NCBI GenBank assembly: GCA_024401275.1
Contig: JAKSLJ010000001.1
Location: 62,001 to 126,000, forward strand
Length of the DNA stretch: 64,000 bases
From: Bacteroidaceae bacterium
Lineage (GTDB): Bacteria; Bacteroidota; Bacteroidia; Bacteroidales; Bacteroidaceae
Direction: 5' to 3'
Shown: one piece after another, positions 16,090 through 59,333 of the stretch
How the letters are laid out: each line of letters starts with the position of its first letter
Position numbering within the stretch: position 1 is the first letter of the stretch
Notes under the pieces: generated by a model
Seen by the model: only the letters and a program-made list of their open reading frames with translations
What the model was told of the DNA's origin: nothing
Database searches by the model: none
Program-made: the position numbers and the translations under genes

Positions 16090-17430
16090 TTATTTACTTG
16101 TCATTATGTCCAGCACCATTCGGTCTGTATCGTCCATGGCCTTTGCTCCGATGGAGGTGAGATTATGGATTGTCTTGTCAACATCATTGTCCACGATGCC
16201 TTCTGCCGATGTGACATGCTTGCCTTCCATAGCAAGGAGTGCAGATAGCAATGCAGTTGAGACTCCAGAGGCAATCTTCAGCGAGCAGCTTGGCTTTGCC
16301 CCGTCGCAGATCATGCCGGTAAGGTTGGCTATCATATTGTTTACGGCAAAGCAGATGCGGTCGTAATCACCGCCCATGAGGTAAGTTATGCCGCAACTTG
16401 CTCCCGTGGAAGCCACCACGCAACCGCAAAGTGCAGACAGTGTGCCGAGGCTTTGCTTTATGTAAATGGCAGTCAGGTGCGAGAGAGTGAGAGCGCGGAT
16501 GAGTTCTTCCTCCGTATTCTGGTTCTCCTGAGCATAGACCACAACAGGATTCGTGGCACAGATGCCTTGGTTGCCACTTCCGGAATTGCTCATCACCGGC
16601 ACCATAGCTCCTCCCATACGGGCATCACAGGCGAGGGCAGTCTTTGATATGATGTGTGAGAATATGCTGTTGCCGAAAATGCCGTGCGACATTGGGCGCT
16701 CGATAGTCTTGCCCAGACAGTGGCCGTAGTTGCCGTGCACGCTTTCCTTTGCGGCATTCATGTTCAGCTCCTTCGCTTCGAGGATGAAGGAGATTTCGGA
16801 CAGAGGAGCCGTAGTTGCGAAATCATAGACGAGACGCAAAGAGAGAGAGGCCCCCTCATTCCCCCAAAGGGGGAGGTTTTTATTAGTTTTTAAGGCGCAA
16901 TTTTCATCCGTAGGGCCTATTGAAGACTCCCCCTTCGGGGGGTGGGGGGCAACGAAGTTTGTGTGGGAACCCGCAATAATTGCCCTTGCGCTCCGCATTG
17001 ACTTTAATTCTGCATCCAGCATTCTACATTCTGCATTTACTATCGCCTCCACATAGAGTTTCTCCGTGATGTCCTCCTTCAGTTGGATGTTTATGCGACC
17101 TTCTGCGATGTATTTCTTTCCCTGTTCAAGAACCTCTGGTGTGAGGTCTTTGAGCACTTGCAGCTTGTATTCGCTCTTGCCAATGATTGCACCGAGTGCA
17201 ATGGCTATAGGCAGACCTATCATCCCCGTTCCAGGAATACCTACGCCCATAGCGTTCTTGAGCAGATTTGCCGACAGATGTACCTCTATTCTATCAGGCA
17301 AGCAACCTAGTTCTTCTGTTGCCTTAGCCACGCATAGAGCTACGCACATTGGTTCTGTGCAGCCCATTGCCGGCACGACCTGCTGCTTTATCAGAGATAT
17401 TATTTCTTCGCGTTCTTTTGTGGATAGCAT
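16090..17430 (-). CDS. L-cysteine desulfidase-like protein (UPF0597, CyuA/YhaM family)
   Basis: The 446-residue protein begins with the family signature VVPAMGCTEPMCVALC, where the Cys residues are thought to help hold a 4Fe-4S cluster. Further Cys-containing blocks are ALCGCVVASTGASCGI and MICDGAKPSCSLK. Members degrade L-cysteine to pyruvate, ammonia and sulfide. The family is usually around 430 residues. Here the region about residues 130-200 contains foreign-looking sequence: AECRMLDAEL from a heptamer array, then PHPPKGESS and LPLWGNEGA from two G/C-rich palindromes. The conserved parts on both sides are in one frame, so the gene may be functional. It lies 18 bases upstream of dsbD on the same strand. 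Confidence 0.85.
   Translation of the reverse strand: MLSTKEREEIISLIKQQVVPAMGCTEPMCVALCVAKATEELGCLPDRIEVHLSANLLKNAMGVGIPGTGMIGLPIAIALGAIIGKSEYKLQVLKDLTPEVLEQGKKYIAEGRINIQLKEDITEKLYVEAIVNAECRMLDAELKSMRSARAIIAGSHTNFVAPHPPKGESSIGPTDENCALKTNKNLPLWGNEGASLSLRLVYDFATTAPLSEISFILEAKELNMNAAKESVHGNYGHCLGKTIERPMSHGIFGNSIFSHIISKTALACDARMGGAMVPVMSNSGSGNQGICATNPVVVYAQENQNTEEELIRALTLSHLTAIYIKQSLGTLSALCGCVVASTGASCGITYLMGGDYDRICFAVNNMIANLTGMICDGAKPSCSLKIASGVSTALLSALLAMEGKHVTSAEGIVDNDVDKTIHNLTSIGAKAMDDTDRMVLDIMTSK
16850..16882. repeat. G/C-rich palindrome inserted in desulfidase gene, element A
   Basis: GGCCCCCTCATTCCCCC, then AAAGGGGGAGG; encodes LPLWGNEGA. Same family as 15368-15398. Confidence 0.75.
16924..16951. 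repeat. G/C-rich palindrome inserted in desulfidase gene, element B
   Basis: GACTCCCCCTTCGGGG, then GGTGGGGGGC; encodes PHPPKGESS. Same family as 15591-15619. Confidence 0.75.
17007..17037. repeat. ATTCTGC heptamer array inside the desulfidase gene
   Basis: Four units: ATTCTGC, ATCCAGC, ATTCTAC, ATTCTGC. Read on the minus strand it encodes NAECRMLDAEL. It is the most diverged of the ATTCTGC arrays in the window, suggesting an older insertion. Confidence 0.75.
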
Positions 17431-37727: not shown

Positions 37728-38435
37728 TTATTTCTTAAGGAACTCAGCCAATTTTGCAACGGCTCTTGCTCTGTGCGAGATGCCGTTTTTTATTTCGTTG
37801 CCAAGTTCGGCGAATGTCTGTTCGTAACCTTCTGGCTTGAAGATTGGGTCATAGCCGAAACCTTCTGCGCCAGAGCGTTCGGTGGTGATGCTGCCTTCTA
37901 CGATACCTTCAAAGAATAATGCAGAATTCTGAATGCAGAATGCAGAATTAGGCTGCGCGTCATTCTCAGGTTGGGAATCATTCTGCATTCTGCATTCTGC
38001 ATTCTGCATTCTCTCAAGTTCTGCATTCTGCATTATTAAACAGATTACGGTCTTGAAGTGGGCTTTGCGATTCTCCTTGCCTTCAAGTTTCTGTAGAAGG
38101 ACGGTCATGTTCGCCTCGCTGTCGTGGTCTAATTCTGCATTCTGCATTCTGCATTCTGCATTACACAAAGCAGCATAACGGGCGCTGTAGATGCCTGGCT
38201 CTCCGCCAAGTGCTTCTACTTCAAGACCTGTATCGTCAGCAAAGCATGCAATGCCGTATTTGTTGTAGATATACTCCGCCTTCTGCTGAGCATTTTCCTT
38301 CAGCGTGCTTCCTGTCTCTGGAATGTCTTCCGTACAGCCTATTTCTGCGAGCGACACGACCTCGAAGTCTGCGCCTAATATGTTGCGCACCTCATCGAGC
38401 TTATGCGCATTGTTTGTTGCAAATACTATCTTCAT
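37728..38435 (-). CDS. rdgB: Non-canonical purine NTP pyrophosphatase with repeat-encoded insertions
   Basis: The 235-residue protein is a RdgB/HAM1 enzyme that hydrolyses ITP, dITP and XTP. Core motifs are all present: [48 protein letters not shown], and ISHRARAV. Family members are about 195 residues. The extra length comes from two insertions. One replaces a short loop after YSARYA ([13 protein letters not shown]). The other is a 40-residue insert after KTVICLI that runs [18 protein letters not shown], then a hydrophilic spacer, then [11 protein letters not shown]. Both are direct translations of heptamer arrays. Their total length keeps the frame, so the enzyme may still work, as both lie at surface loops in known structures by alignment to normal family members. 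Confidence 0.9.
37916..37950. repeat. GCAGAAT heptamer array in rdgB, right-facing
   Basis: Plus-strand units ATGCAGAATTCTGAATGCAG and AATGCAGAATTA. Inverted relative to the array at 37978-38034. Confidence 0.85.
37978..38034. repeat. ATTCTGC heptamer array in rdgB, left-facing
   Basis: About seven tandem ATTCTGC units, with a CTCAAGTT interruption near 38013-38020. Together with 37916-37950 it forms an inverted pair around a 27-base unique segment. Confidence 0.9.
38131..38163. repeat. Third ATTCTGC array in rdgB
   Basis: Four uninterrupted units of ATTCTGC plus a partial one, encoding [12 protein letters not shown] on the minus strand. Confidence 0.9.
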
Positions 38436-39463: not shown

Positions 39464-40333
39464 TTATGCTGTTTTCGCCTTCTTCAATCCGCGTACGACG
39501 TAATATCCTCCGAGCAGAATGAATGGTACTGAAAGGAGCTGTCCCATATTGAACAGCATTCCGTCCTCGAAGGCTTCCTGATTCTCCTTTGTGTATTCTA
39601 TGAAGAAACGGAATGTGAAGATATAGGCAAGGCAAAGACCAAAGAAGAATCCTGTGCCGACCAATTTCTTGTTTTTCAGATAGATAGCAAATCCGATGAA
39701 GAGCAATATGAAGTATGCGATAGCTTCATAAAGCTGTCCCGGATGGCGTGGCTCCATATCTACTCTTTCGAAGATGAAAGCCCAAGGCACATCAGTTACC
39801 TTACCGATGATTTCGCTGTTCATGAGATTTCCAAGACGGATGAAGCCGGCAGTGATAGGAGTTGCAATGGCAATGAAGTCAAGTACCTTGATGAGTGGCA
39901 GTTTGCTCCAGCGGACATAAATCCAAAGTGCAATCATAAGTCCGAGCGTACCGCCATGCGATGCAAGTCCTTGATAGCCAGTGAACTTCCAACTGCCGTC
40001 TGCCATTTCTCTCATAGGGATGAACATCTCAAGGATGTGAGTGCCGGATGAGAGGAAATAGTCTGGTTCGTAGAATATGCAGTGACCAAGGCGTGCTCCG
40101 ACGAGGATGCCGAGAAAACAATAGAAAAAGAGCGGGTCAAACAACTCGTCCTTTATGTTGTCCTGCTTGTAGAGCCAGCGCACGATAAAGAATGCGCACA
40201 GCAAGCCGATAAGCCAGCAGAGCGAGTACCAGCGGAACTCCATCGGACCGAGATGGAATGCAATTAGGTCCGGATTCCAGTTTATAAATAATGCAGAATG
40301 CAGAATGCAGAATGCAGAATTACTTGCGATCAT
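39464..40333 (-). CDS. lgt: Prolipoprotein diacylglyceryl transferase
   Basis: Lgt adds diacylglycerol to the lipobox Cys of lipoproteins. The 289-residue frame shows [15 protein letters not shown] at the N-terminus, [17 protein letters not shown] (essential His), and [19 protein letters not shown] (the Lgt signature). Seven membrane helices are expected. The N-terminus is abnormal: from the only plausible upstream ATG (40331-40333) it begins [19 protein letters not shown], in which [11 protein letters not shown] is the translation of a heptamer array. Normal homologues begin a few residues before NWNPD. That ATG lies inside the last codons of the preceding four-helix-bundle gene. Starting instead at the Met of GPMEF would lose the first conserved residues. 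Confidence 0.92.
40289..40321. repeat. GCAGAAT heptamer array at the lgt 5' end
   Basis: Four tandem units in the plus-strand GCAGAAT orientation. It covers the first codons of lgt and touches the stop of the four-helix-bundle gene. It is inverted relative to 40765-40798. Confidence 0.9.
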
Positions 40334-40691
40334 TTGTTTTAAAAGTAGTTTTTACGATTGATGTTAACATTGAAAGTATTTCGCTTAGGTCAGCATTGAT
40401 GCTGGTAAACGAATTATCATCAATGTATAAAGCTTCATGTAGAAGTTCTAACCAATATTCCGTTTCAGCAGCTTCCTTCAAGGCAATATTCATTTTTGCA
40501 CCGAAATCTGCTTTACTTTGTCCTCGCAAAGCTTCTCTTACGTTTGCTCCTATACTTGTCCCAGAACGTAGCGCTTGCTTGGAAAGGGTATGCTCGTTTT
40601 TGCTTTCTTGAAGGTATTGGTATAGTTTTATGATTCTTAATGCAAAAGCTTTGGTTTTGATAGCGATAGGATTATCTTTATCTATATCCAT
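40320..40691 (-). CDS. Four-helix-bundle protein (23S rRNA intervening-sequence / bAvd-like family)
   Basis: The 123-residue protein starts [20 protein letters not shown] and shows the strong family signature [21 protein letters not shown], with [14 protein letters not shown] in the second half. This family (annotated as four helix bundle protein or S23) occurs in rRNA intervening sequences and as many scattered genes in Bacteroidetes, and resembles the Avd accessory proteins of diversity-generating retroelements. Function is not known. Here it is inserted between ychF and lgt and bracketed by inverted heptamer arrays. Its last codons contain the ATG used by lgt. Confidence 0.9.
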
Positions 40692-40764
40692 ATTGGGAAT
40701 ATGAAAAAGAATTATGAATATTAAAAGCAGAAGGTACGCTCTGCGTTGATGTTATGGCACAGCT

Positions 40765-40798
40765 TAATTCTGCATTCTGCATTCAGAATTCTGCATTA
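40765..40798. repeat. ATTCTGC heptamer array next to the ychF stop
   Basis: Units TTAATTCTGC, ATTCTGC, ATTCAGA, ATTCTGC, ATTA; the last base is two bases before the ychF stop codon (40801-40803). It is the opposite-orientation partner of 40289-40321. Confidence 0.85.
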
Positions 40799-40800
40799 AC

Positions 40801-41901
40801 TTAAACATTAAAGCGGAAGTGCATGATGTCACCGTCTTGCACAACATATTCCTTACCCTCGATGCCCATCTTGCCTGCATCGCGAACGGCTGATTCTGAA
40901 CCGAGTGCGATGTAATCGTCGTACTTGATAACCTCAGCGCGGATGAAGCCCTTCTCAAAGTCAGTGTGGATGACACCTGCACACTGTGGAGCTTTCCAGC
41001 CCTTGCGGTAAGTCCATGCCTTAACCTCCATCTCGCCTGCAGTGATGAATGTCTCAAGGTTCAGCAGAGAGTAAGCCTTCTTGATGAGTCGGTTTACGCC
41101 AGACTCCTCAAGGCCAAGCTCATCGAGGAACATCTGCTTGTCCTCGTAAGTCTCGAGAGAAGCGATGTCTTCCTCTGTCTTTCCTGCGATGATGAGCACT
41201 TCTGCGCCTTCTTCCTTTGCTATTTCCTCAACACGCTTTGAGAAGTCGTTACCAGTCTTTGCTGAAGCTTCGTCAACATTGCAGACATAGAGCACAGGCT
41301 TTGCTGTGAGGAGGAAGAGGTCGTGTGCCACCTTCTGCTCGTCCTTGCTGTCGAACTCTACGACGCGGGCATTCTTTCCCTGCTCAAGAGCCTCCTTGTA
41401 TGCAGTGAGTACAGCGACAGCCACCTTTGCGTCCTTGTTGCCGGCAGCCGCAGTCTTCTGCTCCTTGCCGATACGAGATTCAATTGTCTCAAGGTCTTTT
41501 AGCTGAAGCTCAGTGTCAATGATTTCCTTGTCGCGGATAGGGTCGATGCTTCCGTCAACGTGTGTGATGTTCTCATCCTCGAAGCAACGAAGCACATGAA
41601 TGATAGCGTCAGTTTCGCGGATGTTGCCGAGGAACTTGTTTCCAAGACCTTCGCCCTTGCTTGCACCCTTTACGAGACCAGCGATGTCAACGATTTCGCA
41701 AGTTGCAGGAACGATTCTGCCTGGGTGAACAATCTCAGCGAGCTTTGTCAATCGCTCGTCAGGCACAGTAATAACGCCTACATTTGGTTCGATTGTACAG
41801 AAAGGAAAGTTTGCTGCCTGAGCCTTAGCGCTTGACAGACAGTTGAATATTGTTGACTTTCCTACGTTAGGAAGTCCTACGATACCACATTTTAATGCCA
41901 T
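40801..41901 (-). CDS. ychF: Ribosome-binding ATPase YchF
   Basis: A 366-residue Obg-family P-loop protein that prefers ATP and binds ribosomes. Motifs: G1 GLPNVGKST (residues 8-16), the switch [12 protein letters not shown]3 [14 protein letters not shown] and the C-terminal TGS-like part ending [18 protein letters not shown]. Length and N-terminus ([14 protein letters not shown]) are standard. It is the first gene of a leftward operon that continues through the four-helix-bundle gene, lgt, yitT-like and rdgB. Confidence 0.97.
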
Positions 41902-59214: not shown

Positions 59215-59266
59215 GTTGGCATTTAATGAAATACAATTCCGTCGCAGATCTGACAAGTTTGTGCGC

Positions 59267-59333
59267 GGAATGTTTGCGGAATGTTGCGGAATGTTTGCGG
59301 AATGTTGCGGAATGTCGTGATGACATTCCGCAT
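59267..59333. repeat. GCGGAATGTT tandem repeat and hairpin
   Basis: Five units of GCGGAATGTT(T) with 10/11-base period, the last forming the perfect hairpin GCGGAATGTC-GTGAT-GACATTCCGC (59309-59333). It lies in the 426-base gap between the PL1 and GH43 genes; another GCGGAATGT lies at 59372. Confidence 0.85.

Follow-up and report, generated by a model that had tools for sequence, protein, structure and literature searches.

What brought a gene for a small four-helix-bundle protein of the S23 family (PF05635) to the junction of ychF and lgt, and do the inverted heptamer arrays on either side of it belong to the same unit? The initial annotation of this locus had read gene and arrays as a possible mobile cassette, with GCAGAAT units on one side and ATTCTGC units on the other, one end abutting the ychF stop and the other having replaced the start of lgt. 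Each element of this description was confirmed in the window, by which we mean the whole stretch of 64,000 nucleotides that was analysed (Table 1). To our knowledge, no function has been assigned to PF05635 proteins. We consider it likely that the locus holds a small mobile element that is related in kind to the intervening sequences (IVSs) of 23S rRNA and in which a pentameric S23 protein reads the arrays of its own element.

Table 1. Features of the ychF-lgt junction and of the neighbouring rdgB gene (window positions).
Feature	Position	Strand	Remarks
Gene-less copy (array, TTAGGCTGCGC spacer, inverted array) in rdgB	37918..38036	.	in frame; absent from G096
Single array, 4.4 copies, in rdgB	38130..38163	.	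in frame; absent from G096
lgt	39464..40333	-	native start region missing
lgt-side outer array (AATGCAG)4.4, five AAT cores	40290..40320	.	downstream arm in gene orientation
S23 four-helix-bundle gene, 123 aa	40320..40691	-	PF05635, TIGR02436; AlphaFold2 pLDDT 94; best PDB match 2rld
Subterminal motif TAAGCTGTGCC	40756..40766	-	adjoins upstream arm
ychF-side outer array, ATTCTGC units and one ATTCAGA, five ATT cores	40767..40799	.	upstream arm in gene orientation
ychF	40801..41901	-	co-directional neighbour upstream

All copies in the lgt-side array are perfect, the variant unit of the ychF-side array is its third, and the cores of both arms, counted by eye on the sequence, are spaced by 7 bp. 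A few bases separate the ychF stop from the end of its array, and the lgt reading frame passes in frame through the other array, beginning inside the 3' end of the S23 gene. The S23 protein scored 91.3 bits against PF05635 (cut-off 33.8) and 104.4 bits against TIGR02436 (cut-off 24), and profile searches matched it to nothing beyond the S23 family and models related to it, a transposase-like domain being absent. TAAGCTGTGCC, in our reading, resembles the motif TTAGGCTGCGC that stands beside the arrays of gene-less copies and of two S23 elements in other genomes (L099, L121). With up to two mismatches, GCAGAATGCAGAAT occurs 21 times in the window versus 1.0 expected (maximum of 3 in 100 shuffles); with up to one mismatch it is found 290 times genome-wide, the same pattern read backwards not once. 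As to the array ascribed to the desulfidase gene, the match to GCAGAATGCAGAAT at positions 17007-17034 is degenerate and no longer than two units. A tandem array of a different kind, with 2.4 perfect copies of a 21-bp unit, lies at 59265-59315. The source genome has two PF05635 genes, and the second (L001) likewise carries inverted arrays at both ends, built from the heptamer AGTTTTT rather than GCAGAAT.

G096, whose lgt is the closest among 108 genomes, shows what the junction looks like when empty: the aligned flanks enclose 506 bp in the source genome and 19 bp in G096, the replaced bases including the native lgt start region, and the empty site has no precursor array. Empty ychF-lgt junctions, when looked for, were also present in several further genomes. 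The two rdgB arrays, which had been taken for solo copies of the same system, proved to be frame-keeping insertions relative to G096, the first replacing 32 bp for a net gain of 78 bp and the second 22 bp for one of 21 bp; at one of these sites, a small repeat of another kind occurs in G096. At none of the three window sites compared with G096 did we see a target-site duplication, 19, 22, and 32 bp having been replaced instead. Nine array clusters of the source genome had matching flanks in G096, some of them within one G096 interval; six lack arrays there, and at the other three G096 has arrays too, one with a GCAGAAT pair. At one site (L026/L376), an array element is found in both genomes with different heptamers, and the G096 copy has the TTAGGCTGCGC spacer. 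The site beside lgt is, judging from its occupants, a recurrent insertion target: S23 genes stand between ychF and lgt in G000, G012, G027, G033, and G054, the position immediately before lgt is taken by PDDEXK_3 genes in G006, G018, and G032 (ychF was checked for G032 only), and the set of loci as a whole (L162-L191, L047, L054, L095, L099) comprises varied S23 elements, a PDDEXK_3 element, and gene-less arrays or palindromes. In two genomes with insertions at lgt, an AGTTCAT array possibly supplies the lgt start codon.

Is the bracket a peculiarity of this locus or a trait of the family? A PF05635 profile search of 60 genomes of the genus gave about 150 places among the matches listed, of which 114, from 43 genomes, were used, the roughly 35 left out being mainly the weakest, broken or contig-end ones; one of the 114 had no flank, leaving 113. 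For each gene, the 500 bp upstream were aligned with the reverse complement of the 500 bp downstream, with scores between unrelated loci as null and the segments 500-1000 bp out as control. By this measure, 98 of 113 S23 genes exceeded the 95th percentile of the cross-locus null and 73 the 99th, with 15 below the 95th, and a single outer flank out of 109 passed the 99th percentile; a clear tandem period was evident in 92 of the 98 with inverted repeats. ParE toxin genes (PF05016), chosen as a control of small patchy genes, were tested along with PF13366 and PF04480, with 30 loci each among the matches listed (two DUF559 loci had no flank). Against a null pooled over three families, 101 of 113 S23 genes passed the 95th percentile versus 2 of 30 ParE genes.

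The bracket also extends beyond the genus set. In a named collection of 80 close relatives of the window protein, 78 of them with flank, 39 loci belong to Bacteroidota and 30 to Clostridia by our reading of the titles of metagenome-assembled genomes, whose bins may be wrong; the rest are single or double records from Synergistota, Armatimonadota, Planctomycetota, Kiritimatiellota, Fibrobacterota, Chloroflexota, and Negativicutes, and one is of unknown affiliation. A score of at least 14.5 was reached by 64 of 78 loci (34/39 Bacteroidota, 23/30 Clostridia, 7/9 others), so that inverted arrays are carried by 30 of the 39 outside Bacteroidota, and by none of 66 outer flanks. The latter served as the control here because the named loci share units, which inflates their cross-locus null (32 of 78 above its 95th percentile). 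All 64 arrays have period 7, and 53 consist of AAT-led heptamers. The association of gene family and arrays thus recurs in other genomes, contrary to what would have counted against the cassette, and the family, described as scattered in Bacteroidetes, does occur there but, going by record titles, is not confined to that phylum.

The arms are built to a common plan. Among the 98 elements of the genus set with arms scoring at least 14.5, which also form the base of the copy-number and unit/protein analyses, the periods were 7 (51 elements), 8 (27), 9 (3), 10 (6), 11 (1), and 14 (4), with none clear in 6, and the median element length is about 500 bp. The median number of copies per arm was 4.6, 4.3, 4.2, 3.8, and 4.1 at periods 7, 8, 9, 10, and 11 (173 arms) and 2.7 at period 14 (7 arms), giving 4.4 over all 180 arms. 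In a core-by-core count of AAT heptamers, arms that had three or more cores had exactly five in 52 of 69 cases in the source genome; at 56 named loci, the same was true of 33 left arms and 28 right arms. In frequent variant units, AAT is kept and the four intervening letters differ. In 76 of 85 elements (of the 98), the two arms were in better register than the mean of permuted orders and in 4 in worse, in a test biased in its own favour by arms having been picked by alignment. Purines make up more than half of the left arm in 82 of 98 elements and less than half in 13. No subterminal 7-mer is common to all S23 elements, the most frequent one occurring in 16 of 196 inner segments.

That protein and arrays form one system, as had been supposed, is supported by the way in which the unit follows the protein. 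Protein distance correlated with array-spectrum distance (Mantel r 0.26; maximum of 999 permutations, 0.08), the value for the outer flanks being -0.01. Among 196 related S23 pairs, 56 have a common flanking gene and may each represent one inherited insertion; in the 140 pairs without one, array similarity was still 0.355, versus 0.046 in 3054 distant pairs. Since the arrays are similar despite different flanking genes, gene and arrays appear to travel jointly to new sites. The sequences fit the protein as part of the machinery as well as a co-adapted passenger.

The unit is also a property of the genome. GCAGAATGCAGAAT occurs 119 times in the source genome and five times in 59 other genomes together, and (GCAGAAT)3 is present 43 times in the source genome, twice each in G053 and G359, and not at all in 395 of 398 searched genomes, including G096. 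In 540 kb of G096, a sample that is not random, being set by contig order and by matches to a source-genome stretch, the commonest tandem heptamer is AAAGGCT with 11 sites, and exactly this unit brackets the only S23 gene detected there, the flanks of which were examined after the heptamers had been counted. In two species, then, comparison of the arrays indicates that the unit at the gene is that of the genome's other arrays. The agreement is less clear elsewhere: in G045, the expected octamer is the commonest octamer, yet has 2 sites, and another heptamer has 3; in G016, whose one S23 gene has weak arms, recurrent arrays of 7- to 11-mers were absent from 200 kb. Two genomes without detected S23 genes had no recurrent 7- or 8-mers. 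One of the two, G024 (L434-L443), has a recurrent 10-mer array, AAGTGACATT, at 5 sites in 200 kb. Of 60 genomes, 13 contain AGTTCAT arrays, with a matching S23 gene only in G027 and G033 among the S23 genes examined; G037 (70 AGTTCAT matches) and G032 (26) show no matching unit at the S23 genes examined, two of three matches in each, and in G027 the unit is confined to the surroundings of its S23 gene. The AGTTTTT unit of L001 has almost no gene-less copies in 136 kb of the source genome. A strict rule of one gene to one array is rejected on account of the AGTTCAT arrays in genomes lacking a matching gene among those examined.

Gene-less copies bear the unit of the resident gene in two genomes. 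Of 36 array clusters of the source genome examined among the matches listed, two are the arms of the S23 element; among the remaining 34, both arms are present in 21, always as array followed by inverted array, and 13 are single arrays. A scan of about 2.1 Mb gave 13 occurrences of TTAGGCTGCGC, with nine copies in the source genome, two in G096, and two at the S23 genes L099 and L121 of other genomes, the last of which tie the gene-less copies to S23 elements. With many short non-coding copies that have inverted ends, exemplified by the 119 exact double units genome-wide, these copies resemble miniature inverted-repeat transposable elements (MITEs) except for the missing target-site duplication at the three window sites, and the gene-bearing element found with these ends codes for S23. 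An enrichment of arrays in genes was considered and rejected, 18 of 34 gene-less clusters lying inside long open frames versus 67% of random positions. All nine source-genome TTAGGCTGCGC copies point in one direction relative to the surrounding or adjacent open frame; we do not claim a strict orientation of gene-less copies, as L030, with a related spacer, by our reading points the opposite way. Four gene-less clusters share a single open frame exceeding 1200 codons (L142, G000:C7:3500-8500). In several genes (L023, L146, L157, L159, and, in G096, L366), arrays stand directly before a C-terminal YN[IL]AGQKV-like stretch, apparently a tolerated array site.

The orientation of gene-bearing elements is one-sided. 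With neighbour orientation taken from the longest stop-free frames rather than from annotation, 62 S23 genes had the strand of both neighbours, 5 were mixed, and none was opposite to both (n = 67), and the named loci gave 29, 7, and 0; the corresponding numbers were 13, 0, and 0 for PDDEXK_3 genes and 5, 4, and 6 for ParE genes, against a background of 514 co-directional neighbour pairs in 696. From these counts, the S23 element is sense-oriented, probably within host operons. In the predicted fold of the window element RNA, the two arms form the closing stem (z -5.5).

The AlphaFold2 model of the window protein adopts the four-helix-bundle fold of 2rld (Foldseek against 2rld_E, TM 0.85/0.96), and the S23 crystal entries 2rld and 2gsc contain five chains each. 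Foldseek also found a resemblance to Avd, the accessory protein of diversity-generating retroelements (4dwl_D, TM 0.68/0.76, E 0.095, 13% identity), and to the solved complex of Avd with reverse transcriptase (8ub7, E 0.2), whereas a sequence profile search did not reach Avd at E 1. Avd and S23 are, we presume, pentamers, in agreement with these chain counts. Five chains facing five cores is an argument from number, and the chain count of a crystal may differ from the cellular oligomer.

Other small genes are bracketed in a comparable manner. PDDEXK_3/GxxExxY genes (PF13366; L272-L301) have inverted repeats at their ends, often arrays of units of about 9-12 bp, and 27 of 30 exceeded the 95th and 20 the 99th percentile of the pooled null; a further one (L165, G032:C38), at the ychF-lgt junction, is bracketed likewise. 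Short stand-alone DUF559 genes (PF04480; L378-L407), presumably endonuclease-like, lie between inverted CCCCAACCCCTCCC..GAAGGGAGGGG palindromes, with 13 of 28 loci scoring above 18, and DUF559 matches in long frames are mostly without them.

On the reading that we favour, a complete copy of the mobile element would comprise, in about 500 bp, one S23 gene and two inverted arms of about five short cores each. Its sense position inside operons would make the gene readable from the host transcript and enable the arms to pair around it, forming a stem like that of S23-coding IVSs of 23S rRNA. An S23 pentamer of Avd fold could then bind an arm with each subunit holding one of its five cores, and such recognition of the unit might let gene-bearing and gene-less copies of one unit spread in a genome, the latter being mobilised in trans and the movement step possibly proceeding via RNA. 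Movement itself, which we infer from sequence, is the weakest link of this chain.

How far the RNA is involved divides the more specific versions. Tentatively, one might envisage a class of mobile elements acting at the RNA level, in which the pentameric S23 protein reads five cores in the stem of its own transcript by a subfamily-specific code and copies insert sense-wise into transcripts, hence into operons; the 23S rRNA inserts would then be members that landed in rRNA, and the GxxExxY and DUF559 cassettes parallel, nuclease-type elements. A DNA-level element, moved together with its arms by a host or trans-acting nuclease or transposase, with S23 recognising no more than the ends and sense orientation reflecting selection for expression from the host operon, is possible as well, albeit doubtful. 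The ends are inverted repeats, MITE-like gene-less copies exist, the bracketed PF13366 family is named after a PDDEXK nuclease fold and DUF559 genes are bracketed too, and orientation could indeed be selected; yet the three window sites show replaced bases in place of a target-site duplication, profile searches of S23 revealed no transposase-like domain, and 0 of 67 genes opposite to both neighbours is extreme for selection alone.

Mobility might also come from elsewhere, the arms being a platform on which the S23 pentamer regulates the mRNA that encodes it. Binding to spaced triplets is a habit of ring proteins, and a near-fixed number of cores, arms in register, and sense orientation would all suit such autoregulation; we nevertheless regard it as improbable, since it leaves unexplained the many gene-less copies of one unit, many of them inside reading frames, and the absence of (GCAGAAT)3 from G096. 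The least credible is that the arrays are ordinary expanding microsatellites among which a host S23 gene lies by chance. Short tandem units and the different small repeat of G096 at one rdgB site would be expected from slippage, but copies stay at about four at any unit length, a steadiness not expected from slippage alone, the arms are inverted and in register, and the empty lgt-ychF site of G096 has no precursor array. Because the units accompany the protein to loci without common neighbours, S23 genes are bracketed much more often than ParE genes, and copy number is steady, we reject the slippage-only reading.

Were the arms of the mobile element indeed binding sites of S23, each bracketed member of the family would have its predicted ligand written alongside, which would make the family testable. 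If true, it would offer an origin for the IVSs of 23S rRNA and for the heptamer arrays, specific to a genome, by which protein genes are invaded and lengthened, and would imply a protein-repeat code common to organisms of several phyla.

With the REPIN/RAYT system and the Rickettsia palindromic elements, the S23 elements have in common many short palindromic copies per genome alongside one resident protein and palindromes that form in-frame insertions in protein genes; RAYTs, however, are HUH nucleases, whereas S23 is a helical protein. The BrickBuilt MITEs of Porphyromonas gingivalis are likewise mobile-looking, found in Bacteroidales, and composed of tandem repeats and inverted ends, but their 23-nt tandem repeats are internal and their terminal repeats insertion-sequence-like, as far as the accessible text of PMC4596501 goes, the main text of which, to the same extent, lacks the terms 'four helix' and '23S'. 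The TAACTGA heptamer repeats of Beggiatoaceae, Cyanobacteria, and some Bacteroidetes are abundant and patchy as well, but are direct repeats, with one indirect set, for which a role in translation was proposed in the available part of PMC4679880; both terms are absent from its main text, within the same bounds. A resemblance of PF05635 to Avd is noted in the portion of PMC10053308 at hand, and the S23 model shares the Avd-like fold, but diversity-generating retroelements have a reverse transcriptase and the S23 element of about 500 bp has a single gene and none.

The closest likeness is to the S23-coding IVSs. According to the accessible sections of PMC4990558, these measure 428-444 nt, contain the ORF flanked by terminal inverted repeats, which pair into a stem, have tandem heptamers in strain-variable number upstream of the ORF, and are cut out by RNase III; the paper calls their function and origin unclear and cites earlier proposals that they are transposition remnants or mobile elements whose ORF serves mobility. 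In S23 ORF, stem-capable terminal inverted repeats, tandem heptamers, and size, the window element is alike, but IVSs reside in 23S rRNA, whereas it lies between ychF and lgt and elements of its type have protein genes as neighbours, possess about five cores in each arm, and are accompanied by gene-less copies. A full-text literature search, outside the scope of which lay most subscription journals and preprints, brought up no link of PF05635 outside 23S rRNA to inverted arrays, gene-less progeny, or a protein-specific unit. Set beside these relatives, an S23 gene with its arrays outside 23S rRNA has the look of a mobile element of a kind not recognised before.
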